A DNA stretch of 64,000 nucleotides, from assembly GCF_002005205.3 (NCBI RefSeq), contig NZ_CP019701.2, positions 1,240,001 through 1,304,000 on the forward strand, given 5' to 3'. The notes under the pieces were generated by a model. It had not been told where the DNA came from and ran no database searches. It saw nothing but the letters and a program-made list of their open reading frames with translations. The position numbers were made by a program, and so were the translations under genes. Below are positions 1-56,502 of the stretch, piece after piece. Every line of letters begins with the position of its first letter. Positions within the stretch are counted from its first letter, which is position 1. This DNA is from Rhizobium rhizogenes (GTDB lineage Bacteria; Pseudomonadota; Alphaproteobacteria; Rhizobiales; Rhizobiaceae).

Positions 1-95
1 TTACATTCGTTTCGATTATCGATACACCAATCTCCATCAGCAGCGACGAAGACGCCTCACCCGCCGATCTCGCTGCCACCACTAACCGGAGATGA
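1..95 (+). CDS. C-terminal end of an unidentified prophage I gene (partial)
   Basis: One plus-strand frame (codons from base 3) is open from the window edge to a TGA at 93-95. The tail is acidic and Ser/Ala-rich (SSDEDASPADLAA). The stop precedes the next likely start at 101 by five bases, which fits the tight packing of the downstream operon. Too little is visible to name a function, and this could be an incidental open frame. Confidence 0.35.
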   Translation, partial: TFVSIIDTPISISSDEDASPADLAATTNRR

Positions 96-100
96 ACGCG

Positions 101-355
101 ATGGCATGGGTAACCCGATACAGGATTGAAGACGGTGCCCGTGTTTTCAACGGAACCGAGTTCACGACCGACGAATGCGACGTGTTTGAGTATCGCAGCG
201 AAGGTGAAGCGAACGACGATGCCGAAGAGTTCGGCGGCGAGGTCGTCAAGTTCGATCGGTATGCCGCGCATCCCGACATGGTTTTCCCGTCGCGTTCGGT
301 CGATCCGCTCGTCCGTGGCGCTGATCTCGGCGGGCATCTGGAAGCGGCTGAGTAA
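101..355 (+). CDS. Small acidic prophage protein, unknown function
   Basis: An 84-residue protein, rich in Asp/Glu, of the kind found between regulatory and recombination genes in rhizobial prophages. The ATG at 101 is chosen because a GGAG at 88-91 lies nine bases upstream; the in-frame ATG at 92 directly abuts that GGAG and is an unlikely start. No motif, signal peptide or membrane segment is seen. It is first in a run of short plus-strand genes and is probably co-transcribed with them. Confidence 0.55.
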   Translation: MAWVTRYRIEDGARVFNGTEFTTDECDVFEYRSEGEANDDAEEFGGEVVKFDRYAAHPDMVFPSRSVDPLVRGADLGGHLEAAE

Positions 356-359
356 GACG

Positions 360-716
360 ATGAGCGAACGAGCAAAAACAACAGGCGGCTCAGCTTTCCC
401 CGGTAACCACTCTTACGTTGATGGGTATCCTGCAAGCTTCGAAGGCATGACGCACCGCGATTATGCGGCGATCCATGCAGATCAGCCAGGCATTGCCGAG
501 ATCGTTTCTATGGCCGGCTTAACCTACTCGGCCGGTCAGGTCTGGTCTGACGAGCAAACGTCCCTCGGTGGTTTCGAAATCTGGTGGCGGTCAATCCCAA
601 ATTCGGAACGGTTCATGCTTTCAGCCCGCGTCCGTTACGCGATGGCAGACGCCCTTCTGGCGGTTAAAGCCGAAACCGACCCCAAGCACTCAGATTACGA
701 CGACGGGCCATTTTGA
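360..716 (+). CDS. Hypothetical prophage protein (118 aa)
   Basis: It starts at ATG 360, four bases after the preceding stop. The mixed-composition 118-residue sequence includes a conserved-looking core (FEGMTHRDYAAIHADQPG) and a Trp-rich stretch (GFEIWWRSIP). The upstream in-frame extension to 126 is low-complexity Arg/Ser-rich sequence in the shadow of the previous gene, so it was left out. No family is recognised. The sequence suggests a soluble protein, and its position fits an early or accessory phage role. Confidence 0.6.
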   Translation: MSERAKTTGGSAFPGNHSYVDGYPASFEGMTHRDYAAIHADQPGIAEIVSMAGLTYSAGQVWSDEQTSLGGFEIWWRSIPNSERFMLSARVRYAMADALLAVKAETDPKHSDYDDGPF

Positions 717-753
717 GCCGCCCCGCATAGGGCTTCAGACAAGGGATAGGGAT

Positions 754-1017
754 ATGACGCTGAGCCTCAAAGTCCTAAAGGACATATTTCCGAAAAATGA
801 ACCGGCGTTCGAAGCGCCCTTCCGTGTCGAGACAGACAAGGATGGAGAGGTTCATATCCGTGATGCGCAGGGTGACATACTAGCGACGTTCGCTCGATAC
901 ACGCAAATGCCGATTAGCGACGAAAGAGCCTTGGCTTACGAGGTCGCCTACTGGGAAATTGAAGCAAACCGCATCGTTGCGGCGCTCAATGCTTCTTACC
1001 CCACCCCCACCAAGTAA
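754..1017 (+). CDS. Hypothetical prophage protein (87 aa)
   Basis: ATG 754 follows an AGGGATAGGG stretch that can act as ribosome-binding site. The 87 residues read as a compact soluble domain (FRVETDKDGEVHIRDAQGDI, then a helical C-terminus ending in a Pro/Thr tail). No catalytic motif was seen. It is in the same direction as its neighbours and lies 37 bases from the preceding gene. Confidence 0.6.
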   Translation: MTLSLKVLKDIFPKNEPAFEAPFRVETDKDGEVHIRDAQGDILATFARYTQMPISDERALAYEVAYWEIEANRIVAALNASYPTPTK

Positions 1018-1040
1018 CCACAGCAAAGCGGGATAAGAAG

Positions 1041-1301
1041 ATGGCAGAGATTGAGTGTGTCTATCGAGCCAGAGTTTTCTACGAAGCCAGCCCAGACATC
1101 GTGGATGCAATAGAAAACAAAGCATTCGGTTGGCAAGGGTCTCTTGAGGTCGAAACGATGTGCGGGAATGCGTGCTGTCCGCCGCACATCGTCGCTGAAG
1201 GCCGATCTCTGGCAGAAGTTACAAAATGGGCCGAGAAAGTTGAGCGCTACATCACGCGCCGCAAAGGGGCTGAACTTCTAGCCCCTGCCCAATCCTCCTA
1301 A
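1041..1301 (+). CDS. Hypothetical prophage protein (86 aa)
   Basis: The start at 1041 is preceded by GATAAGAAG. The protein is 86 aa. It contains a CGNACCPPH segment, whose clustered Cys and His could bind metal, although the spacing matches no zinc finger I can name. A second frame on the other strand through this region is a shadow. Gene order suggests it belongs to the early operon upstream of the RecE/RecT-like pair. Confidence 0.55.
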   Translation: MAEIECVYRARVFYEASPDIVDAIENKAFGWQGSLEVETMCGNACCPPHIVAEGRSLAEVTKWAEKVERYITRRKGAELLAPAQSS

Positions 1302-1345
1302 CCAACCCACCGGCTTTGTCAGAGTAACAGATAAGGGGCAGGATA

Positions 1346-1534
1346 ATGAGCAAGGCAGTTGAAGACGTGTTGTTGGAGCGCCAGAGACAGGTTGTCGCTG
1401 AGGGCTTCGACCAGAACCACGACGACGCATACCATGACGGCGACCCGCGCAAAGCAGCGGCCATGCTCAACGAGGGTTTGGTTCAGGGCGTCGAAGAACG
1501 TCTGTCGCTCTATGCTTCGAAAGGGAGATCGTGA
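1346..1534 (+). CDS. Hypothetical prophage protein (62 aa)
   Basis: Small acidic protein with ATG at 1346 behind AAGGGGCAGGATA. Its TGA overlaps the ATG of the next gene (TGATG at 1532-1536), a sign of translational coupling. The early part (VLLERQRQVVAEGFDQNHDD) resembles a short segment seen in many phage and prophage proteins of unknown function. No domain can be assigned with confidence. Confidence 0.55.
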   Translation: MSKAVEDVLLERQRQVVAEGFDQNHDDAYHDGDPRKAAAMLNEGLVQGVEERLSLYASKGRS

Positions 1535-1758
1535 TGCCCTCCGCTTTCTCCAACACACCAGAAGCGGACGCACTGATCGAACGCATCGAAGCGATCGACA
1601 AGCGTTACCAGGCCGCCCAGCGCAAGATGCGCTCCATCGAACAACTCACCCTCGTTCTCGTGTCCTGCAGCCTCATGTTCGGCGGGTGCTTGGCGCTTGA
1701 GAGCGTCCTGAAGGAACGGGCGGTTATCAATCAGGAGGTCAGCGCGTGGAAAAGATAG
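1534..1758 (+). CDS. Small predicted single-span membrane protein of prophage I
   Basis: The protein is 74 aa, translationally coupled to the previous gene and overlapping the following nuclease gene by 13 bases. The N-terminal half is helical and charged; residues about 40-55 (LVLVSCSLMFGGCLALESV) are hydrophobic enough for one membrane segment. Function unknown. The overlap on both sides supports it as a real member of the operon. Confidence 0.55.
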   Translation: MPSAFSNTPEADALIERIEAIDKRYQAAQRKMRSIEQLTLVLVSCSLMFGGCLALESVLKERAVINQEVSAWKR

Positions 1759-2750
1759 TCGATCAGGACAGGTTCCAGCACATCAGCGGCATTGCCGGGA
1801 AGCTAATCGGCGGCCTTCGACGGGATCGCGTCTGGGACGGCTCGCAAATCAAGCTGGGCGCGGTCTACAGCGGCGTTCCGATTGAGGCCTACCACAGCGA
1901 TACCGAACTGTTTGACGGCTTCTCTATCTCAAGCTCAGGCCTTCGCGCCGTGCTAAAGCGTCCGTCCGAATATTGGGGCTTCTCGCCCTACAATCCCAAT
2001 CCGTTTGAAAAGCCGGAGAAGGATAGCCTGGAGTTCGGCAAGGCGGCCCATATGCTGTTGCTGGGCGAAGAAGGCTTCAAGGAGCGCTATGTCCTGCGCC
2101 CGGAGAAATATCCCGACGAGAAAGGCAACAAGAAGCCTTGGAGCGGCAATTCCAACTGGTGCAAGAAGTGGCTTGCCGATCAGAAGAACGCCGGCCGCGT
2201 CGTCATCACCGACACCGATATCTCGCATATACGCCACATCGCCAACTCGCTCCAGAGCAAGGAGGCTATCCGCCTCGGCATTCTGAACGGTCGCATCGAG
2301 CGCAGCATCTTCTGCAAGCACGGCGATATCTGGCTGAAGGCGCGGCCGGATGTGGTGCCGAACGACAGCGGCGACTTTGTCGACTTGAAGACAGCCGCCA
2401 GTGTGGATGATGAAAGCCTGTCCAAGGCGATCTATTCGCACGGCTATCATGTTCAGGCCGGGCTGCTCCGCATGGTGGTCCGCGAAATCCTCGGCGCCGA
2501 CGCATTCTCCAGCTTCACCTTCGTGTTTGTAGAGAAGTCCCCCCCCTATGACGTGCGGGTTATGCAGCTGAAAGACGAGGATATCGACCTCGGGGAAGCG
2601 CTCGCCCGCAAGGCCATTGCGACGGTCAACGAGTGCCTGAAGCGCAACGACTGGCCAGGCTACGACGGCTTCGACAAGGCCATTTCCTACGCCGAGATGC
2701 CCGGATGGGCAAAGACTCGAATCAAAATTGAACTGGAGGCCGCAGCGTGA
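1746..2750 (+). CDS. PD-(D/E)XK nuclease-like protein, RecE/exonuclease VIII type (DUF3799-like)
   Basis: A 334-aa protein starting at GTG 1746. The core shows the layout of RecE-like phage exonucleases: a helical entry motif (EFGKAAHMLLLG, about residues 98-109), then KARPDVVPNDSGDFVDLKTA (about 198-217), where the first D, the second D of FVDLK and the K form the PD-(D/E)XK metal site. In this family the enzyme degrades one strand from double-strand ends and hands single strands to an annealing protein. The RecT-like gene follows with a 4-base overlap (ATGA-type), so the two probably form a recombination pair. Assignment is by motif and context; the N-terminal 60 residues are not diagnostic. 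Confidence 0.8.
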   Translation: MEKIVDQDRFQHISGIAGKLIGGLRRDRVWDGSQIKLGAVYSGVPIEAYHSDTELFDGFSISSSGLRAVLKRPSEYWGFSPYNPNPFEKPEKDSLEFGKAAHMLLLGEEGFKERYVLRPEKYPDEKGNKKPWSGNSNWCKKWLADQKNAGRVVITDTDISHIRHIANSLQSKEAIRLGILNGRIERSIFCKHGDIWLKARPDVVPNDSGDFVDLKTAASVDDESLSKAIYSHGYHVQAGLLRMVVREILGADAFSSFTFVFVEKSPPYDVRVMQLKDEDIDLGEALARKAIATVNECLKRNDWPGYDGFDKAISYAEMPGWAKTRIKIELEAAA

Positions 2751-3922
2751 ACCAGCTTGCCAAGAATAACGAACGCCCTTCCAAACCTGCGCTTCTTGCC
2801 GGCGGCGCAATTTCCGCAATCGTACCACAGTCGATCGAGGAAGCATTCCGTTTGGCCGAGGCGATCCATATGTCTGGCATGGCCCCGAGTGGCTTCGACA
2901 GCCCACAGAAGGTCATGATCGCCATGCTCGCCGGCCTTGAAATCGGCATGCCGCCTATGGCTTCCGTTCAGTCTGTGGCCGTCATCAACAATCGTCCGTG
3001 CATCTGGGGTGATGCACTTATCGGCGTCGTCCGCAAATCCCCGCTTTGCCTCTATGTCACCGAGTGGATTGAGGGCGAAGGTGACGAGATGATCGCTCAT
3101 TGTGAGACACACCGCAAAGGCGAACCGCGCCCTGTCAAAATGTCGTTCTCGGTAGTCGATGCCAAGAAGGCTGGCTTGTGGCAGACGGAAGCCCGGATCA
3201 CGAAGAAATCGCGGGATGGCGGCACCTACCAGAAAGACAACGACAGCCCGTGGTACAAATACCCGAAGCGAATGCTGCAAATGCGAGCCCGCGCTTGGTG
3301 CCTTCGTGACGTCTACGCCGATGTGACCAAGGGCATGCAGGTACGCGAAGAAGTCGAGGATTACCAGCACGTCGGCCCCGACAACGCCCGCGATATCACA
3401 CCGGCGCAGCCGTCGGTCATGGCAAGGCTCCGCGCCGCTCAGGAAGCCCCACAGCAGCCCGAGGAAGAGCGCGAAGGCTTTGACGCGGCATTCGTCCATT
3501 CGGAGACGGAAACAGCTCTCACGGGCGAGATACTGCCCAACACCAATTCCGACGATGAATCCCCTGCCCAGTCGTCGGATAACGCTGGCATGACGCCAGT
3601 AGATGAGGCCGGAGCGGATGAAGTCCCCGCCTCCGATGCTCCGGCCTCGACCGATCCAGAGCGCGATATCCTTATCCGGTTTGCTGCTGAAATGCTGCCG
3701 ATGGCCGCTACAGCGCCGACTGAGGCATGGAAGGAAGTCGAAAAGGGCTGGTCTGAAGGCGAGATGAAAAAGCTGTCTTCCGCCGGTCTGGAAAAGGCGA
3801 AGGCGATCAGCATGTCGCTGCGTGCGATTGCGAAGGGCAACACCAGTCTGGAGTCGGCGGTCGAGTATTACGCCGAGGTGCTGGACTGCAAGGCTTCTGA
3901 TCTGGGAGGCGTCGATGGCTGA
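2747..3922 (+). CDS. RecT-like single-strand annealing protein
   Basis: The 391-aa product has a conserved N-terminal two thirds typical of phage RecT-family proteins: SPQKVMIAMLAGLEIGMPPM, a Trp-rich 'WGDALIGVV' segment and 'SPWYKYPKRMLQMRARAWCLRD' near residues 165-187. The last third is acidic, Pro/Ser-rich and likely disordered (about residues 225-310), ending in a helical segment. RecT proteins anneal complementary strands during phage recombination, working with a 5'-3' exonuclease. The gene overlaps the RecE-like gene upstream by 4 bases and the next gene downstream by 8, so translation is probably coupled. Confidence 0.8.
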   Translation: MNQLAKNNERPSKPALLAGGAISAIVPQSIEEAFRLAEAIHMSGMAPSGFDSPQKVMIAMLAGLEIGMPPMASVQSVAVINNRPCIWGDALIGVVRKSPLCLYVTEWIEGEGDEMIAHCETHRKGEPRPVKMSFSVVDAKKAGLWQTEARITKKSRDGGTYQKDNDSPWYKYPKRMLQMRARAWCLRDVYADVTKGMQVREEVEDYQHVGPDNARDITPAQPSVMARLRAAQEAPQQPEEEREGFDAAFVHSETETALTGEILPNTNSDDESPAQSSDNAGMTPVDEAGADEVPASDAPASTDPERDILIRFAAEMLPMAATAPTEAWKEVEKGWSEGEMKKLSSAGLEKAKAISMSLRAIAKGNTSLESAVEYYAEVLDCKASDLGGVDG

Positions 3923-4568
3923 CCGTCCTATCCTTTTCAGCGCGCCAATGATCCGCGCGTTGCTGGCTGGCACGAAGACACAGACGCGGCGCCTTATCAA
4001 GCCACGCGGGAAGCATCGCCCAAGCCTGTTCGACGGCACATGGTCCGATTCATATGTGCTTGACCACGGCAACGAAAGCTGGCGCCAAGTCGATATCCCG
4101 ATCAAACTTGGTGATCGCCTGTGGGTGCGTGAAACATGGGCTCCCTTGTCTGCCCTTACCCACAACGATCCGGGCGTGCAGGCTTTGGCGGACGGAGGTT
4201 TCTATCGCGCTGACGGTGGGACGGTCGATGGCGAAATCTCCAAGTGGTTACCGTCGATTTTTATGCCTCGTCATGCTTCCCGCCTGACGCTGATCGTCAC
4301 CGACGTGCGGGTGGAGCGGTTGCAGGACATCAGCGAGGCTGACGCGGATGCCGAATGCTTTGGCGGCAACTATCCCGGCGATGTTCTGCCAGAGGTATTC
4401 CACGGAGACCGGGAGCAGTACGGCCATCTTTCGATGGCGCAATGCTACGGCAGACTGTGGAACCACATCAACGGCGCTGGAGCATGGGAAGAAAACCCGT
4501 GGATAGTCGCCTACACCTTCACCGTCCACCACGGCAACATCGACCAGATTGCGCAGGTGGCAGCATGA
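3915..4568 (+). CDS. ASCH/PUA-like phage protein (often named 'morphogenetic protein')
   Basis: The start is ATG 3915, inside the end of the RecT-like gene. The opening RPILFSAPMIRALLAGTKTQ-TRR is the signature of a widespread prophage family with an ASCH/PUA-like fold. The rest has alternating beta-rich segments (GDRLWVRETW, SRLTLIVTDVRVERLQDI, then a C-terminal NPWIVAYTF). The family is frequently labelled morphogenetic, but that name has little functional backing; an RNA- or nucleotide-binding role is more likely from the fold. 217 aa. Confidence 0.75.
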   Translation: MADRPILFSAPMIRALLAGTKTQTRRLIKPRGKHRPSLFDGTWSDSYVLDHGNESWRQVDIPIKLGDRLWVRETWAPLSALTHNDPGVQALADGGFYRADGGTVDGEISKWLPSIFMPRHASRLTLIVTDVRVERLQDISEADADAECFGGNYPGDVLPEVFHGDREQYGHLSMAQCYGRLWNHINGAGAWEENPWIVAYTFTVHHGNIDQIAQVAA

Positions 4569-4768
4569 ACCGCCTCATTAGACGCGCCATCCACCACTGG
4601 CTCGCTTGGAAGTCGAGACGGAAGCTTGCCCGTGAATACAACTGGCAAACCGAGATCGACGCCGAGATAAGACAGGCAAAGCAATCCCACGGCAAGACAG
4701 GACGTGTCCGCGATCTGGAACGCCGCAAGCGGGACATGATGACACACGCGCTGAGAGGGCATAACTGA
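4565..4768 (+). CDS. Small basic prophage protein (67 aa)
   Basis: A very Arg/Lys-rich 67-residue protein (RRAIHHWLAWKSRRKLAREYNW), consistent with nucleic-acid binding. Its ATG overlaps the preceding stop (ATGA at 4565-4568) and its own stop overlaps the next ATG at 4768, so it is embedded in a coupled operon. No family is recognised. Confidence 0.55.
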   Translation: MNRLIRRAIHHWLAWKSRRKLAREYNWQTEIDAEIRQAKQSHGKTGRVRDLERRKRDMMTHALRGHN

Positions 4769-5370
4769 TGGCCCGGACAGTAGACGAGTGGGTAGGCAAG
4801 ACGGATGACGCCAGAGTGCCACCACGGGTCCGCCAGCGCGTGTTCGACCGGCATAACGGCATATGCCACCTGACCGGCCGCAAAATTCAGCCTGGTGAGA
4901 AATGGGAGCTGGAGCATATCCACGCCCTCATCCTCGGTGGTCAGCATAGAGAAAGCAATCTGGCGCCGGCGCTCTATGCCCCTCACAAGGTCAAGACGGC
5001 CACCGAGATGAAGGTGAAAGCTAAGACCGATGCTGTTCGAAAGAAGCATCTGGGCATCACCCGCCCGAAGCAGACGATCAAGTCCGCCCCCTTCCCCAAA
5101 TCCGAAAAGGCAAGCCAGCGAGACCCGAACAAAGGACTGCCGCCGCTGCCACGCAACAATCTGTACGAGGCAAAGACAGCTTGGGCATTTGCCGATGGCG
5201 ATCTGGTGCGCAAGAAATCCGGCTCATGGTGGGAAGGCCGCGTCGTCGGCACATACTCCACCGAGCAGACACCGCGCGGATATGCCGTCCAGTTGGATAA
5301 GGCATTTGGCCCTGTCCAGATTTACCCGGAATCGGCTCTTGAGAGCGCCCTGCAATCGGAGGAGCGGTGA
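4768..5370 (+). CDS. HNH endonuclease fused to an R67/DfrB-like C-terminal domain
   Basis: Two domains in 200 aa. Residues about 20-80 form an HNH nuclease core: GICHLTGRKI, then ELEHIHALILGG (H50, H52), ESNLAP (N64) and APHKVKT (H73). One expected zinc Cys is replaced (CHLT rather than CxxC). Residues about 80-138 are a basic, Pro-rich linker. Residues about 143-193 match the type II dihydrofolate reductase of plasmid R67: GDLVRKKSG, WWEGRVVGTY, TPRGYAV and VQIYP. The R67 active residues K32, Q67, I68 and Y69 correspond to K149, Q184, I185 and Y186 here. R67 works as an SH3-fold tetramer around a central pore. Whether this fusion reduces dihydrofolate, or uses the fold for assembly or DNA binding, cannot be decided from sequence. 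The gene is coupled to both neighbours by 1-3 base overlaps. Confidence 0.85.
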   Translation: MARTVDEWVGKTDDARVPPRVRQRVFDRHNGICHLTGRKIQPGEKWELEHIHALILGGQHRESNLAPALYAPHKVKTATEMKVKAKTDAVRKKHLGITRPKQTIKSAPFPKSEKASQRDPNKGLPPLPRNNLYEAKTAWAFADGDLVRKKSGSWWEGRVVGTYSTEQTPRGYAVQLDKAFGPVQIYPESALESALQSEER

Positions 5371-5633
5371 TGAAGATGGAATCCGCTGGAAAGGACATGC
5401 GCCGAATTATCTCCGATACGGGAGAGGTGGTGGGGCTTGCCGCAAAGCTTATGAATAATCGTTGGTGTGCCCTTGATTGTGACGGCGGCCGTATAGCGCG
5501 GGCTGGTTTTTTCGACACTCCGCGCCAGGTCTTGCAGTGGTTTGAGAAAGAGGAGCGGTGCTGTCCCAGCACCTGCCATACATCTACCGATGGGACCGCC
5601 AAGGCCGTAAAGGCCAGCCCTGCGATGTCCTGA
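5370..5633 (+). CDS. Hypothetical prophage protein (87 aa)
   Basis: ATG 5370 overlaps the TGA of the HNH gene. The first 60 residues look genuine (ISDTGEVVGLAAKLMNNRW, then GFFDTPRQVLQWFEKEE). The last 25 residues lie in the overlap with the next frame and read like low-complexity sequence, so the true end could be affected by a frameshift or simply be a long overlap. Function unknown. Confidence 0.5.
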   Translation: MKMESAGKDMRRIISDTGEVVGLAAKLMNNRWCALDCDGGRIARAGFFDTPRQVLQWFEKEERCCPSTCHTSTDGTAKAVKASPAMS

Positions 5634-5749
5634 TCCGCACCAAGGTCATGAATAGTTGTCTCGTCCGGTTTGGCGACGGCTACACCATGGTCACAAGCCG
5701 CAATGCGCTGATGAGCAACCGAGCGGCGCTTGAAAGGAGCGAGGGATGA
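5558..5749 (+). CDS. Hypothetical prophage protein (63 aa)
   Basis: This frame starts at GTG 5558 (or a nearby non-ATG codon) just after AGGAG at 5551. It encodes YIYRWDRQGRKGQPCDVLIR and a C-terminal region (SCLVRFGDGYTMVTSRNAL) that looks like a real small phage protein. It overlaps the previous frame by 76 bases, which is long, and its stop overlaps the next ATG (ATGA at 5746-5749). No function can be inferred. Confidence 0.5.
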   Translation: MLSQHLPYIYRWDRQGRKGQPCDVLIRTKVMNSCLVRFGDGYTMVTSRNALMSNRAALERSEG

Positions 5750-5943
5750 CGGAGGAAGCCAGAACAATCGCCAGAAGATCGAGAGCCAGCGAAAGAGCTA
5801 TCACAGCCGCCCTCACCGCGATGAAGTCTGCAGGCCTGCCTGTGGATAAGGTGTGCGTAAACGGTGGACAGGTCGAGATCCACGTCAATACCGTTGAGGG
5901 CGCGACAGAAGCTGAAAATGATGGAGGCCTCAAAGATTGGTGA
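5746..5943 (+). CDS. Hypothetical prophage protein (65 aa)
   Basis: Small helical protein (ARTIARRSRASERAITAALT) followed by a short beta-like stretch (VCVNGGQVEIHVN). Its position directly before a phage integrase, and its size, would suit an excisionase, but no helix-turn-helix or winged-helix signature is clear. It is coupled to the upstream gene by a 4-base overlap and lies eight bases from the integrase start. Confidence 0.5.
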   Translation: MTEEARTIARRSRASERAITAALTAMKSAGLPVDKVCVNGGQVEIHVNTVEGATEAENDGGLKDW

Positions 5944-5951
5944 GGCTTCAA

Positions 5952-7019
5952 ATGAAAATCGACTATCCGGGCCTGATTGAGCAGAAACTTCCTTCAGGCA
6001 CGGTCATTTATCGCGTCAGGCCGAAAGGCCAACACAGCAAGCGCATCCAGATAAGCGGGGAGTTCGGCTCAGACGAGTTTATCCGCCAATACTGGATAGC
6101 CAGGCGCGGAGAAAAACCGGAGCAGGAGAAGAAAGCGTCCGAGCAGGAAGCACCGAAATCTATCGGGTGGCTTGTTCAAAGCTACTTCGAATATTTGGAA
6201 GAGCGCGTGAAGGCCGGAACAACCAGCGCAAAAACGGTGAAGAAAAAGCGTAATCTTCTCAACCGGCTAATTGTCGAACCGGACAGGAAAATGCTCATTC
6301 CGCGGGAAAAGCTCATTGAGATGCAGGACAAGATGGGGTCGACGCCGGCACAGGCCGACGCACTCATGGAAGCTGTTAGCGTCATGTACGGTTGGGCTGT
6401 CGAGCGGAAATATGTTCTTGAGAACACAGCCAAGGGCATCAAGCAGATATATCGCAAGGGCGAAGGCGCCACACCGTGGAAGGCAGCGGATGTCAAAAAG
6501 TTCTTTGCCACCCACAAATACGGTAGCAAGCCCTATATAGCCATGAACGTTCTGCTGTGGACCGGATGCCGAATTGAAGACCTGACGATCCTTGGACGGA
6601 AATTCGAATGCGTCATCGATGGGATCGAGGCGCTTCGCTGGACTCCGCTGAAGCGCGGGTCGTCGGAAGTATCCCTTCCCTTGTTCGCACCGCTGAAAGC
6701 AGCAACGAGATCGGCAACAGTGCAAGGCAACACATACGTTCTCGGCAGAGGTGGCAATCCATACGCCAGCGGAGACGCAATGTCCGCAATGTTCAAGCAT
6801 TGGTGCCGCGATGCCGGCCTAAACGAACTGTCCGCTCACGGGGTCAGGAAAGGTCTGGCAGAGGTGTTGGCTGAAATGGGTTGCACCCAATACGAGATCA
6901 TGGCGATACTCGGTCATTCCGAAGCCAAAACGAGTGAAGTTTACACACGCAGGGTCGAAAGATGGAAGCTTGCTCAGGGTGCTATGGAGAAGGTAACCGC
7001 GACTGGCACTTGGTTCTGA
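5952..7019 (+). CDS. int: Tyrosine recombinase (phage integrase)
   Basis: A 355-aa site-specific recombinase that integrates and excises prophage I. ATG 5952 is preferred because GAGG lies about nine bases upstream; an in-frame GTG at 5937 is the alternative. An N-terminal arm-binding part and a core-binding helical domain (about 70-170) precede the catalytic domain. Visible catalytic residues are R207 (TGCRIEDL), a Lys in the beta-hairpin (about K234), H296 and R299 (SAHGVRKGL), H322 (ILGHSE) and Y331 (SEVYTRR). The gene ends 65 bases from the 3' end of tRNA-Leu, which fits insertion at that tRNA. Confidence 0.93.
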   Translation: MKIDYPGLIEQKLPSGTVIYRVRPKGQHSKRIQISGEFGSDEFIRQYWIARRGEKPEQEKKASEQEAPKSIGWLVQSYFEYLEERVKAGTTSAKTVKKKRNLLNRLIVEPDRKMLIPREKLIEMQDKMGSTPAQADALMEAVSVMYGWAVERKYVLENTAKGIKQIYRKGEGATPWKAADVKKFFATHKYGSKPYIAMNVLLWTGCRIEDLTILGRKFECVIDGIEALRWTPLKRGSSEVSLPLFAPLKAATRSATVQGNTYVLGRGGNPYASGDAMSAMFKHWCRDAGLNELSAHGVRKGLAEVLAEMGCTQYEIMAILGHSEAKTSEVYTRRVERWKLAQGAMEKVTATGTWF

Positions 7020-7084: not shown

Positions 7085-7110
7085 TGGTGCGGTCGAGAAG
7101 ACTCGAACTT
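7085..7110. other. Probable att site of prophage I at tRNA-Leu 3' end
   Basis: The 3' end of the tRNA-Leu gene, including CCA, points towards the integrase, so the prophage lies immediately 3' of the tRNA. Tyrosine integrases commonly cross over in this part of a tRNA and restore it. The exact core cannot be defined because the other attachment site lies outside the window. Confidence 0.45.
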
Positions 7111-7169
7111 CCACGGGTTGCCCCACAGCGACCTCAACGCTGCGCGTCTACCAATTCCGCCACGACCGC
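7085..7169 (-). tRNA. tRNA-Leu (anticodon GAG)
   Basis: Reading the minus strand gives an 85-base class II tRNA. The acceptor stem GCGGTCG pairs with CGACCGC, followed by discriminator A and encoded CCA. The D arm carries GGAATTGGTAGACGC. The anticodon stem CAGCG/CGCTG encloses loop TTGAGGT with anticodon GAG. A variable arm TGGGGCAACCCG and a T arm with GTTCGAGTC follow. GAG reads CUC and CUU codons. Its 3' end serves as the likely attachment site for prophage I. Confidence 0.95.
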
Positions 7170-50629: not shown

Positions 50630-52120
50630 TCACCTGTAGAATCCTTCATTCTTTAGAACTACCCTTCTGTAGTCCTTAACGCTTGAATGCGACGACCGAG
50701 TATGCTCTGGGCTTTTCGACCTAATTTGATGTTCACTACGCATATATTGATACACGTAATTAACCTCATAAGTCAGTTCTGTGGAATTGGATATCTTCCT
50801 TAGCCAATCATACATATGCATTGTCATTGAATCGCTGAATATATCTGCATACTGCCTCAAATCCACGTCTTGTCCTTCGTAAACTATGGACCAGTGCGAA
50901 TTGACGTCCAATATGTTCTTTATTCTGGTATTCTTTTCAATCGACCTTGTCTTTGCATATTCGCATACAAGCGGATACATCATCACCAACTCAATTGGAT
51001 ATTCCTCTGTCCATATTGAAGTTATGTCCTGAATTATATCAATTGATTGCTCGAATTGGCGCGTGGTCAACGATGCGAGTTTAGCAGTCTCGGCAAGGAA
51101 CTCAGCAAATATTGCCGGGTCGTTGATTGAGGATGAGGGTGGTATCGACCATTTTGATATGTCGATCCCATTCTTCACAATGAGACTTCCCGCGATATAT
51201 GCGAAGGTGGCTGAATCGAGTTTGTATGATCTATGGAAGAACCTTTGTAGGTATTGCTTTGAATCAAAGTTAGAACCGTATACCGCATTGATAGAATGGG
51301 CCAATTGGTCAGCATCTGTTGCTATTACAAAGACCAAACCTTCAACGTCAAATAGATGCTTGATGCGTTCCAACATAGCGATAGAGTACGTGGGTCTGCA
51401 TCTATCGAGTTCGTCAACAAATATGAAAAATGGTAGTGACTTCTCACTGTCGGTGGTGATGGTTTTCAGGAGCGCAGCAAGGTTGGCTTTAAAATTAGTG
51501 ATGCTGTTGGTTGTCTTATGCAGGTCGTCAAGTCTCTGTTGTGCGTACTTGTCTATCGCTTGATCCGTTAGGGCGGCTACACCAAGGCCAACGGCATCAA
51601 TCATATCTGCTGTTGTTGAACTTTCTTCCGCTCCTATTGAATTGTTCTCGCCCTCTAACGCGGCGGTAATTCCTTCGCCGCCGTCAGATATGGCCTTTTT
51701 TAACAGGGTTTTTCCGACCTCTTTGCCTGTCGCTATCGCAACAGTCCCGAAGTTCCGGCGTAGTTTTTTTGCGCCATCTATGAATTTGGCTTTTACGGAT
51801 TTTGGCAGTTCGCTTTCGATGCTTTTGAAATACCGATCAAGCGCGCCGACGACGATTGAGTAGGGATCGTCTACGAAATCGAATTCCCAAGCGTTTATAA
51901 GAACAGCCGGATGTTTCTTTTCGAGCGCGTCTCGGTACATTCCATTGATGAGGAAGGTTTTACCTTGGCCCCACTTGGCATCTACGTTGATTACGTATGA
52001 ACCGCGTTTGTCAGCCTTTTCGTTTTCCTTGTAGCGATTTAGCAATAGGCGATAGATCAAATCGCCATCTTGCTGACGATTTAGCAAGTCGCCGTTCCAA
52101 TTTTCCGTATCTGCCGTCAT
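50630..52120 (-). CDS. KAP-family P-loop NTPase
   Basis: A 496-aa KAP P-loop protein. Walker A is KWGQGKTFL (K54) and the KAP-type Walker B is FFIFVDELDRCRPTYSIAML near residue 250, followed by the sensor-like VFVIATDADQLAHSI. An insertion between them (about residues 115-215) holds an Ala/Gly-rich stretch (FGTVAIATGKEVGKTLL) but no clear membrane helix, unlike many KAP proteins. KAP proteins such as F-plasmid PifA exclude other phages, so a superinfection-exclusion role is possible; this is inferred from family and prophage location. It is flanked by terminators. Confidence 0.88.
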   Translation of the reverse strand: MTADTENWNGDLLNRQQDGDLIYRLLLNRYKENEKADKRGSYVINVDAKWGQGKTFLINGMYRDALEKKHPAVLINAWEFDFVDDPYSIVVGALDRYFKSIESELPKSVKAKFIDGAKKLRRNFGTVAIATGKEVGKTLLKKAISDGGEGITAALEGENNSIGAEESSTTADMIDAVGLGVAALTDQAIDKYAQQRLDDLHKTTNSITNFKANLAALLKTITTDSEKSLPFFIFVDELDRCRPTYSIAMLERIKHLFDVEGLVFVIATDADQLAHSINAVYGSNFDSKQYLQRFFHRSYKLDSATFAYIAGSLIVKNGIDISKWSIPPSSSINDPAIFAEFLAETAKLASLTTRQFEQSIDIIQDITSIWTEEYPIELVMMYPLVCEYAKTRSIEKNTRIKNILDVNSHWSIVYEGQDVDLRQYADIFSDSMTMHMYDWLRKISNSTELTYEVNYVYQYMRSEHQIRSKSPEHTRSSHSSVKDYRRVVLKNEGFYR

Positions 52121-54571: not shown

Positions 54572-54845
54572 CGTAATTGATGTAGCAACTTACATCCTTG
54601 ATAGTTTCGACGTCAGGTCCGTAACAATCGATTGCGAAGACTCTTTCATCCATATCGGGGGCCGTCTGTTCATAGAGGACGTTTCCGATATATTGCCGAT
54701 CAAAGAAATTGATTTCAGTGATTGGAGACGAGACATCAGGTGCGAACCAAACTCTTTCCAATTCAAACGTTCCGTATCAGGCCGCACAGGCTTGTATGTA
54801 ATTTATGCCGACAAAGACCCTGATTATCACCTCATATCCGTTTAA
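54558..54845 (+). CDS. Hypothetical phage protein (95 aa)
   Basis: Overlaps the previous gene by 14 bases and the convergent integrase by 14 bases. Its beta-rich sequence (SFIHIGGRLFIEDVSDILPI, RTGLYVIYADKDPDYHL) resembles its neighbour in style but not in sequence. No family is recognised. The tight packing supports a real gene. Confidence 0.6.
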   Translation: MISNNVIDVATYILDSFDVRSVTIDCEDSFIHIGGRLFIEDVSDILPIKEIDFSDWRRDIRCEPNSFQFKRSVSGRTGLYVIYADKDPDYHLISV

Positions 54846-56502
54846 CGCGCTGTATGGCCTCGTGTGACGTTTTTAGCCCTACGTTGTTAGCCATCTTTAC
54901 AAGGGCTTCTTCTGACAAATTAGAGAAATCAGTTGACCGAGTAACTTCACCCTTGGCGTTGATTTCCCAAATGCGAGTAGCACCCGCTACCGATACGTAA
55001 GCCGATTGATCAACAGCATCGATGCTAACCACCGAAACGATTTCCCTTAGTTTGGAATTTACCAGAGAACGCGATTGAAAAAGATCGTCACCGCTAAAGG
55101 TATCCCATTTGGAGCGTTCATCTTCGATGGTCTTGTGGATGGTGGTGAAGTCATCACGCACTGTTTCGAGCGTTCTAATTTCAGACGTGACTCGTTCTAT
55201 CTCTGCCGTTTGCCGTGACTTGTCAGAACGTAGGGCTTTCAATCTAGTCATCAAGTCGGTTTTGTCGTCTGGATGGTCCGTAATTTCGGCCATAGCAATG
55301 ATGTTCGAAATACGCCTATCGATATCAGCGATACCCGTTTGAATTTCGATCACCTGCCGCTTTAGATCATCACTGGAAACCGTGGGTATCTCTGGAAGGT
55401 GACAATACGTAGCCACGTTATCCAAAACTGCTTTTTCGAGAATGTCATATCGTAGGGAGGTCTTGCCGTACTTGCCTTTGCCTGTGCAAAGTTCGCCAGT
55501 CTCTTTGATCTTTTCGCAAGTGATGTACCGATGACCTGAGCCACCACCGATAACCCTTGCTGGACCGCCACAGTGAAAGCATTTCGAGATACCAGCAAAC
55601 AAGTTGGTGTACCCTAAGCCGGTCCTGCCATTCGTCGCTTTCTTGGATTTGTTGTTGTACCTATCGTTTACACGCCACCACGTAACCGGATCGACGGCAG
55701 CAGGGTAATATCCCTCAACAACTGTATCACCAATTGCCAAGTCCCCACGAACGGCAACCGAATTCAGGATTTCGCCAACGACTTTACGACGCCAAATCTT
55801 GTTAGGATCGGGATTAGAACGTCTGGACTCCTGAAGGGTAAGGATACCGTTTTCGTTCAACCAAATGGCAATCTTGGCGATACCGTATCCCTTTTCGTAC
55901 AATTCAAAGATTTTCTGAACAGTCGAAACGGACTCTCTAAGAGTGAATTCGTATTCTTTTGAAGTCCCGATTTGGGTTTGTTCTAACCAAGACGGCAGAT
56001 GATGGACGCGGGCTTTGATACCGGCTTTAACATCTGAATGTAGTTGAGCAAGATAGGCTTTACCGCGAACACTTTTGACCTGCGATTCATCGTGTGCGCG
56101 TGCCATCGACATAAGAGAAAATATCAACTGGCTGAAATCATTGTTCCGGCTATAGCGGTACTTGTCAGCCAAGGTAACGACATCGATACCAGAACGGATA
56201 ATGTCGAGTAGTTGCGATTGAGCCGTAAGAACATCAGCGCGTGAAAGTCGGTCGAGAGATTCAACTATCAAAACCGAACCAACCGGAATCTTTCCGTTGT
56301 TCACCAGTTCAAGAAAACCACCGAGCGCACCAAACTTGACGTGATCCTGATGGAAACCAGAGGCAACGTCCGAAAGGCTGGTGTCGATCTCAAGGCCGTG
56401 TTCAAGAGCGTACTTTTCTGCCGCCTCTACCTGACGACGAAGCCCGTCCCCGCCTAACTGTTTCTTAGATGAAATACGGGCATAAGAAAAAGCAAGCGCC
56501 AT
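54832..56502 (-). CDS. int: Large serine recombinase (prophage II integrase)
   Basis: A 556-aa large serine integrase. The catalytic domain has AFSYARISSKKQLGGDGLRR (Ser11 nucleophile) and ESLDRLSRADVL. The recombinase domain follows (YEKGYGIAKIAIWLNENGIL, WRRKVVGEILNSVAVRGDL), then a zinc ribbon (AGISKCFHCGGPARVIGGG, ITCEKIKETGELC) and a coiled coil (EIQTGIADIDRRISNI, TAEIERVTSEIRTLETV). These are the parts needed for directional integration. It starts 86 bases from the right att core. AAAGG serves as ribosome-binding site at 56511-56515. Confidence 0.95.
   Translation of the reverse strand: MALAFSYARISSKKQLGGDGLRRQVEAAEKYALEHGLEIDTSLSDVASGFHQDHVKFGALGGFLELVNNGKIPVGSVLIVESLDRLSRADVLTAQSQLLDIIRSGIDVVTLADKYRYSRNNDFSQLIFSLMSMARAHDESQVKSVRGKAYLAQLHSDVKAGIKARVHHLPSWLEQTQIGTSKEYEFTLRESVSTVQKIFELYEKGYGIAKIAIWLNENGILTLQESRRSNPDPNKIWRRKVVGEILNSVAVRGDLAIGDTVVEGYYPAAVDPVTWWRVNDRYNNKSKKATNGRTGLGYTNLFAGISKCFHCGGPARVIGGGSGHRYITCEKIKETGELCTGKGKYGKTSLRYDILEKAVLDNVATYCHLPEIPTVSSDDLKRQVIEIQTGIADIDRRISNIIAMAEITDHPDDKTDLMTRLKALRSDKSRQTAEIERVTSEIRTLETVRDDFTTIHKTIEDERSKWDTFSGDDLFQSRSLVNSKLREIVSVVSIDAVDQSAYVSVAGATRIWEINAKGEVTRSTDFSNLSEEALVKMANNVGLKTSHEAIQRVKRI

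Follow-up and report, generated by a model that had tools for sequence, protein, structure and literature searches.

Among enzymes conferring trimethoprim resistance, R67 or DfrB1 (PDB 1vie, 2gqv) is a free-standing plasmid enzyme of 78 amino acids (aa), and homologues of such DfrB enzymes are described by Lemay-St-Denis et al. (2023; PMC9835603). According to the text of that article, DfrB-like SH3 domains occur embedded in larger putative proteins, with tetramers and dihydrofolate reductase (DHFR) activity, tetramer formation in the larger protein being driven by the DfrB-like domain. The five homologues selected there (DfrB-H) are 97 to 463 aa long, carry extra domains devoid of structural or sequence similarity to one another, and comprise two of phage origin, namely H3 and H4, as well as one nearly identical to DfrB1 in its core; when overexpressed in E. 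coli, four of the five conferred trimethoprim resistance and two displayed DHFR activity in lysate. For DfrB-H, the same text states that no native function is known and that metagenomic data are needed to trace the family. Phages are almost absent from the texts of these DfrB-origin papers: as the start of a word, “phage” occurs twice in PMC9835603 and not at all in PMC9774602, PMC10432401 and PMC11662351, while “bacteriophage” occurs in none of the four; a freshwater virome is nonetheless reported to contain dfrB2-like open reading frames (ORFs) in four viral contigs (PMC7265639). The present analysis concerns a stretch of 64,000 nucleotides of Rhizobium rhizogenes (contig NZ_CP019701.2; G000:C1:1240001-1304000 of a 5.48-Mb genome), hereafter the window, in which a prophage gene (positions 4768..5370, forward strand) encodes a 200-aa protein, P0001, composed of an HNH endonuclease unit followed by a C-terminal R67/DfrB-like module. 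As far as open-access searches show, a DfrB-like domain within a larger protein is a published kind of architecture, as a preliminary description of this DNA had said and as was reported in 2023, whereas novelty lies in the HNH partner, in the tracing of the junction and in the range of partners; an HNH-DfrB fusion was not found in print in the open-access literature, supplements aside.

The gene starts with an ATG and reads through without internal stop. Its module spans residues 136-194 (5173..5349, forward strand), i.e., slightly more than the residues 143-193 first proposed, the C-terminal position having been correctly recognised. Residues 140-192 match both Pfam DHFR_2 (PF06442; E 5.4e-17, 61.8 bits for a cut-off of 25) and the R67 chains in the PDB (E 3.2e-13), and the structure predicted for residues 130-200 aligns residue for residue with R67 20-78 (59/59, chain 2gqv). 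This alignment bears out the equivalences given in the preliminary description, namely K149 with K32 (codon 5212..5214), and Q184, I185 and Y186 with Q67, I68 and Y69, the last three belonging to the Val183-Gln184-Ile185-Tyr186 segment (5314..5325) that corresponds to the VQIY tetrad of R67. Trp155 (5230..5232) matches W38, a tetramer interface residue according to the text of PMC9835603. At the position of W45, at the monomer interface of R67, P0001 has T162; W45 is described as replaceable and not conserved in DfrB-H by the same source. As such, P0001 resembles DfrB-H in bearing, within a larger protein, a DfrB-like SH3 domain with K32, W38 and VQIY but no conserved W45, and differs from R67 in that the module is the C-terminal domain of a prophage nuclease-type protein. 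A fold unlike R67 and a fortuitous VQIYP match had been named beforehand as outcomes speaking against the assignment; the fold model and the E-values gave neither. The possibility of a chance match is ruled out by the DHFR_2 score, the PDB match and the structural alignment. Likewise, a sequencing or frame artefact is not supported, the frame being open and the gene identical in an IMG/VR record (probably of the same genome).

The remainder of the protein (residues 1-133; 4768..5166, forward strand) is an HNH endonuclease unit ending in a tail of its own that is basic and rich in proline. A match of residues 3-115 is found with PHROG 333, “HNH endonuclease” (E 1.4e-18, profile positions 3-121 of 138), so that both domain assignments of the preliminary description hold. 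Three residues of the motif are invariant in 15 aligned HNH sequences, namely His50 (first His, in LEH; codon 4915..4917), Asn64 (4957..4959) and His73 (last His; 4984..4986), and, taking their role from the family, they would be the catalytic residues. Related PHROG 333 endonucleases occur in phages and prophages of Rhizobiales and Paracoccus; P0001 is 48-80% identical to the 14 aligned relatives, and its identity is 54.8% with Sinorhizobium phage phiLM21 and 58.7% with Paracoccus phage Shpa (residues 1-123 and 3-123). The relatives have the same motif residues and many have the same kind of tail, the long-tailed ones ending around the equivalent of residues 133-138. The basic stretch previously described as a linker thus exists, but it is mostly the C-terminal tail of the HNH family itself rather than a separate linker. 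Unlike P0001, every HNH relative compared lacks the module, and no phage record covers 80% of P0001. In contrast to DfrB-H, the partner is here a recognisable HNH endonuclease with a junction whose origin can be traced, the term “HNH” being absent from the text of PMC9835603, supplement aside.

Key residues of the pore and the interface are nearly invariant among the modules collected. Over 384 distinct modules, K32 is found in 383, W38 in 384, V66 in 383, Q67 in 382, I68 in 383, Y69 in 382 and P70 in 382, and the full set of K32, Q67, I68 and Y69 is present in 378; the position of W45 is, on the other hand, occupied by T in 257, F in 53 and W in 40. Among 57 representatives below 75% identity, the corresponding counts are 56 for K32, 57 for W38, 56 for V66, 57 for Q67, 57 for I68, 55 for Y69 and 56 for P70; the recount over all 384 was made because such representatives hide rare variants, i.e., VHIYP in L015 and VQLYP in L012. 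Since a Q67H mutant of R67 was crystallised with NADP+ (title of PDB 2p4t) and therefore folds, Q67 seems to be kept for more than folding, and a purely structural role is not easily squared with its near invariance.

The DNA of the gene is mosaic. On the HNH side, positions 4780-5111 are 82% identical to the HNH gene of another locus (L020), and 18 of the 19 HNH relatives are 114-146 aa long with the starts chosen (the other, L042, with a late start, has 69). One of them (L006) terminates in ..LPPLPRNSFYEAKP-stop where P0001 reads on as ..LPPLPRNNLYEAKTAWAF.., and the junction region (5158..5181, forward strand), in which the HNH tail passes directly into the leader that belongs to the module, can be compared with ..SFYEAKP-stop in L006 and ..KEAKTGWAF in L030. 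On the module side, a block of 206 bp (5167..5372, forward strand) shares 90.8% identity with the 3' end of a gene from another prophage locus, L030, whose N-terminal part is unrelated, the similarity ending at the stop codon. Because the HNH relatives end near the start of the module and the module DNA is about 91% identical to the end of that gene, the fusion looks recent. The very end of the gene (5344-5372; 29 bp coding for SALQSEER-stop) is moreover identical in L040, on a gene without module whose N-terminus, read by eye, is of the coiled-coil type seen in many module genes; conserved gene ends of this sort may be places of cassette exchange. Separate module genes with a same-strand HNH-type gene or match upstream occur in L044, L045, L123, L126, L133, L137 and L182, and in the last of these (1501-2249, reverse complement) the HNH gene overlaps the module gene by 4 bp (ATGA). 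In L114 (4451-4989), the order is reversed, with the module gene overlapping the HNH gene by the same 4 bp (ATGA). The fusion thus probably joined two genes that are adjacent in related prophages; since they adjoin in some of them, a single deletion would suffice, and a deletion is the event we infer.

The module is found in many other protein contexts. A query with residues 134-200 retrieved 61 more proteins with E-values up to 0.001, and together with the best 120 of 714 and the best 120 of 540 proteins of two further homologue searches, a set of 291 module proteins was obtained, P0001 included; given these best-120 selections, further HNH or other nuclease fusions could exist. Among the matches listed, the 258 flanking segments of at least 30 aa from these 291 proteins fall into 139 clusters, 117 of them single. 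Where modules are at least 85% identical and N-termini at least 30 aa long, the N-termini show no BLASTP similarity (E 0.1) in 396 of 723 protein pairs. Partner families were sought in the 147 of the 291 proteins that were aligned, mostly those with extra sequence. Twenty-four Pfam families were matched, including Lar restriction alleviation (4), GIY-YIG (1), DUF551 (1), alginate lyase (1) and several HTH families with one member each; of the 55 PHROG families, the first 25 contain, among others, pyrophosphatases with 2 members and three homing endonuclease families of one member each. Most partners match nothing known. The GIY-YIG protein, P0200, is a second, unrelated nuclease-type fusion: like P0001, it has a nuclease-type N-terminus and a C-terminal DfrB-like module, but it differs by its nuclease family and by a DfrB1-like version of the module. 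In two other proteins, P0185 and P0187, an N-terminal module precedes a part resembling MazG by eye, a partner that would act on nucleotides, and these are presumably the two PHROG pyrophosphatase matches. P0229 is alginate-lyase-like (PF08787) with a C-terminal module, which is surprising company for a phage early module.

As regards genomic context, the module ORF is free-standing in 31 of the 80 viral-contig loci kept (out of 274), preceded by at least 30 aa in 42 and only followed by at least 30 aa in seven, with starts chosen by script. With P0061 as query, the module was found in 26 phage records, several of them GenBank/RefSeq duplicates, of Rhizobium, Sinorhizobium, Pseudomonas, Vibrio, Ochrobactrum, Aeromonas and Skermania. 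The 45 genome-contig loci have mixed neighbours: of 131 flanking ORFs (the longest non-overlapping ones of 110 aa or more, rather than gene calls), at least eight match PHROG integrase families and four match acetyltransferases. Not every module gene is therefore phage-borne, in agreement with the metabolic neighbours described in the text of PMC9774602. Two of the same 131 ORFs flanking genome-contig module genes (L123-L167) match a TIR domain, although the motif search did not identify them.

Around the fusion gene, the window displays a prophage recombination region. Upstream lie an exonuclease VIII (RecE)-like gene (1746..2750, forward strand; PHROG 412, E 3.2e-76) and a gene for a RecT-like single-stranded DNA annealing protein (2747..3922, forward strand; PHROG 561, E 8.7e-30), and downstream an integrase gene (5937..7019, forward strand; PHROG 1 “integrase”, E 1.8e-25), judged by eye to be of the tyrosine type. 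Farther left, on the opposite strand, ORFs were read by eye as terminase-like and portal-like. A 19-bp repeat (7085..7103) at the 3' end of a tRNA-Leu gene (7085-7169, reverse strand), with a copy at G000:C1:1196229-1196247, is probably the att core and the right prophage end, and the distance between the copies gives a prophage of about 51 kb. An IMG/VR record of 49,977 bases is identical to positions 1-7019 over the stretch compared. At the end of a small ORF, a stretch of 33 bp (5719-5751) is 97-100% identical in four other prophage loci (L022, L024, L026, L030) and looks like a common gene-end joint for mosaic recombination. Elsewhere in the window, a second prophage-like island (23602-56502) has a G+C content mostly around 45-49%, against 57-62% in most of the remaining window; by eye, its ORFs were named large terminase-like, portal-like, capsid-like and DNA methyltransferase-like, together with a KAP-type ATPase-like ORF (50630-52120) and a serine-recombinase-like ORF (54832-56502).

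The explanation preferred here, to which we give an even chance, is that an HNH endonuclease of the prophage recombination region acquired a promiscuous R67/DfrB-type SH3-like module which tetramerises and thereby brings nuclease domains together. The HNH gene would have been joined in frame to a neighbouring phage accessory gene; the module would self-assemble as a dimer of dimers, a tetramer around a central pore of positive charge, gathering four HNH domains that would perform the DNA chemistry, i.e., nicking or cutting. The pore would be a binding site for a small ligand, preferably an anionic or aromatic one, and dihydrofolate reduction, if any, would be incidental to the pore rather than the selected function. 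By homology, P0001 is likely to be tetrameric and to have a pore like that of R67, because domain-driven tetramers are reported in the text of PMC9835603. Also in favour of the explanation are the R67 fold and residues, the near invariance of pore and interface residues, purifying selection on both parts, the many partners, and a recurring association of nucleases with the module (P0200, L182, L114 and the HNH clustering treated below). The preliminary description had offered two uses for the module, and its interpretation is upheld in part: beyond the match of domain and active site, the idea that the SH3-like tetramer serves to assemble a DNA enzyme agrees with the data, with W38 kept and a tetramer reported within a larger protein (PMC9835603, text), while a role as DHFR reservoir may exist as a latent property.

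Several observations weigh against this explanation or limit the evidence for it. Regarding the nuclease, the score with Pfam HNH (PF01844) is 15.5 bits, below the curated cut-off of 21.4, and of the zinc-type Cys set (a CxxC pair plus a Cys ahead of the last His) P0001 keeps C33 only, with T36 in the pair and no Cys before H73, so that its nuclease activity is putative; L020-L022 and L027 share this pattern while L023-L026 and L028 retain the Cys residues. Regarding assembly, the model of the whole protein is of low quality (mean pLDDT 63.4), since its alignment spanned the HNH half only, and one well-studied large homologue is reported in the text of PMC9835603 to form other oligomers besides tetramers. 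The conservation counts lean towards conservation because most modules were found by words or patterns containing the motif. In the set found by the Pfam profile only, i.e., 13 loci reduced to 11 as L018 and L171, both below the cut-off, have no aligned domain, and with four near-copies of one another among them, K32 is present in 10, W38 in 11, V66 in 10, Q67 in 10, I68 in 10 and Y69 in 11; three of the 11 lack one of K32, Q67, I68 and Y69, all four being intact in eight. Regarding the linkage, 115 of 125 module loci (80 viral, 45 genomic) have no PHROG-333-like HNH; in the 10 others, the HNH match is always on the module strand and nine times upstream. With the locus under study excluded, four of nine HNH matches lie within 600 bp of the module for 1.1 expected (binomial 0.018) and none of nine lies more than 3 kb away (0.006), a clustering which is suggestive only, because the sample is small (n = 9), some of these loci also served to build the profile, and phage genes tend to cluster in any case. 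In support of the explanation, purifying selection is indicated by a dN/dS of about 0.09 for the module versus L030 (dN 0.033, dS 0.37) and for the HNH part versus L020 (dN 0.088, dS 0.99), both estimates using unfused relatives and being silent on the fused state.

Rarity bears on the usefulness of the fused form to the phage. Sequence searches for the HNH-DfrB fusion returned this prophage only: full-length matches to P0001 come from its own genome alone among 39 genomes of the genus (five with any match) and among 394 of the family (59 with any match), and from the prophage's own record alone among 24 viral-contig loci, while an HNH N-terminus was read by eye in none of the 61 proteins matching residues 134-200. 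Being seen in this prophage only, the fused form could be a functionless accident, in which a recent deletion fused the HNH gene with the end of an accessory gene located downstream and left the module tolerated but idle. The boundaries suit such an event, the HNH part stopping about where such units usually do and the module block finishing with its own stop codon, as does the adjacency of HNH and module genes in some related prophages, where one deletion is enough. Conversely, the frame is intact and the key residues of both module and HNH unit are kept; in addition, judging from the P0200 fusion and the gene overlaps in L182 and L114, the linkage of nuclease and module recurs elsewhere. An accident is thus less probable than the preferred explanation but remains a strong rival to it. 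That the module would instead be a DNA-binding SH3/KOW/Tudor-like domain steering the nuclease to its target, its pore residues being kept for DNA contact, is quite improbable. Least probable, indeed very much so, is a working trimethoprim-insensitive DHFR making tetrahydrofolate for phage DNA synthesis, with the HNH unit as a passenger and the prophage as a DfrB reservoir. The complete active site, the resistance and lysate activity of the DfrB-H mentioned above, and the label “dihydrofolate reductase protein” on module genes of Rhizobium phages, an annotation by similarity, are in line with it, but the score with NCBIfam trim_DfrB (trimethoprim-resistant DfrB) is 68.2 bits for a cut-off of 137, and a metabolic enzyme would not be expected on HNH, GIY-YIG, Lar-like and HTH proteins and on so many unknown ones; a reservoir leaves these many unrelated partners unexplained.

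Beyond the assembly of an HNH enzyme, a broader and rather improbable idea is that the R67/DfrB pore originated in phages and persists there as a ligand-binding tetramer freely combinable with early proteins, binding a nucleotide-like molecule as a sensor or sponge. No Tad2-type or other known phage sponge was recognised among the best 50 matches of each of two fold searches. Should the idea be true, the partners would include DNA-acting or host-defence-countering proteins (HNH, GIY-YIG, Lar-like, HTH), the candidate pore ligands, of host or phage, would be NAD(P) species, modified nucleotides or alarm signals of nucleotide type, and the module would make the nuclease of this prophage ligand-responsive; plasmid trimethoprim resistance would then be a by-product, since the same pore also fits NADPH and dihydrofolate. 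For the DfrB family, the present case links a DfrB-type domain to a recognisable DNA enzyme, the DNA comparison shows its passage from one phage gene to another, and the set of partners, namely HNH, GIY-YIG, Lar-like, HTH and pyrophosphatase-like proteins, offers places where the ligand of the pore may be sought.
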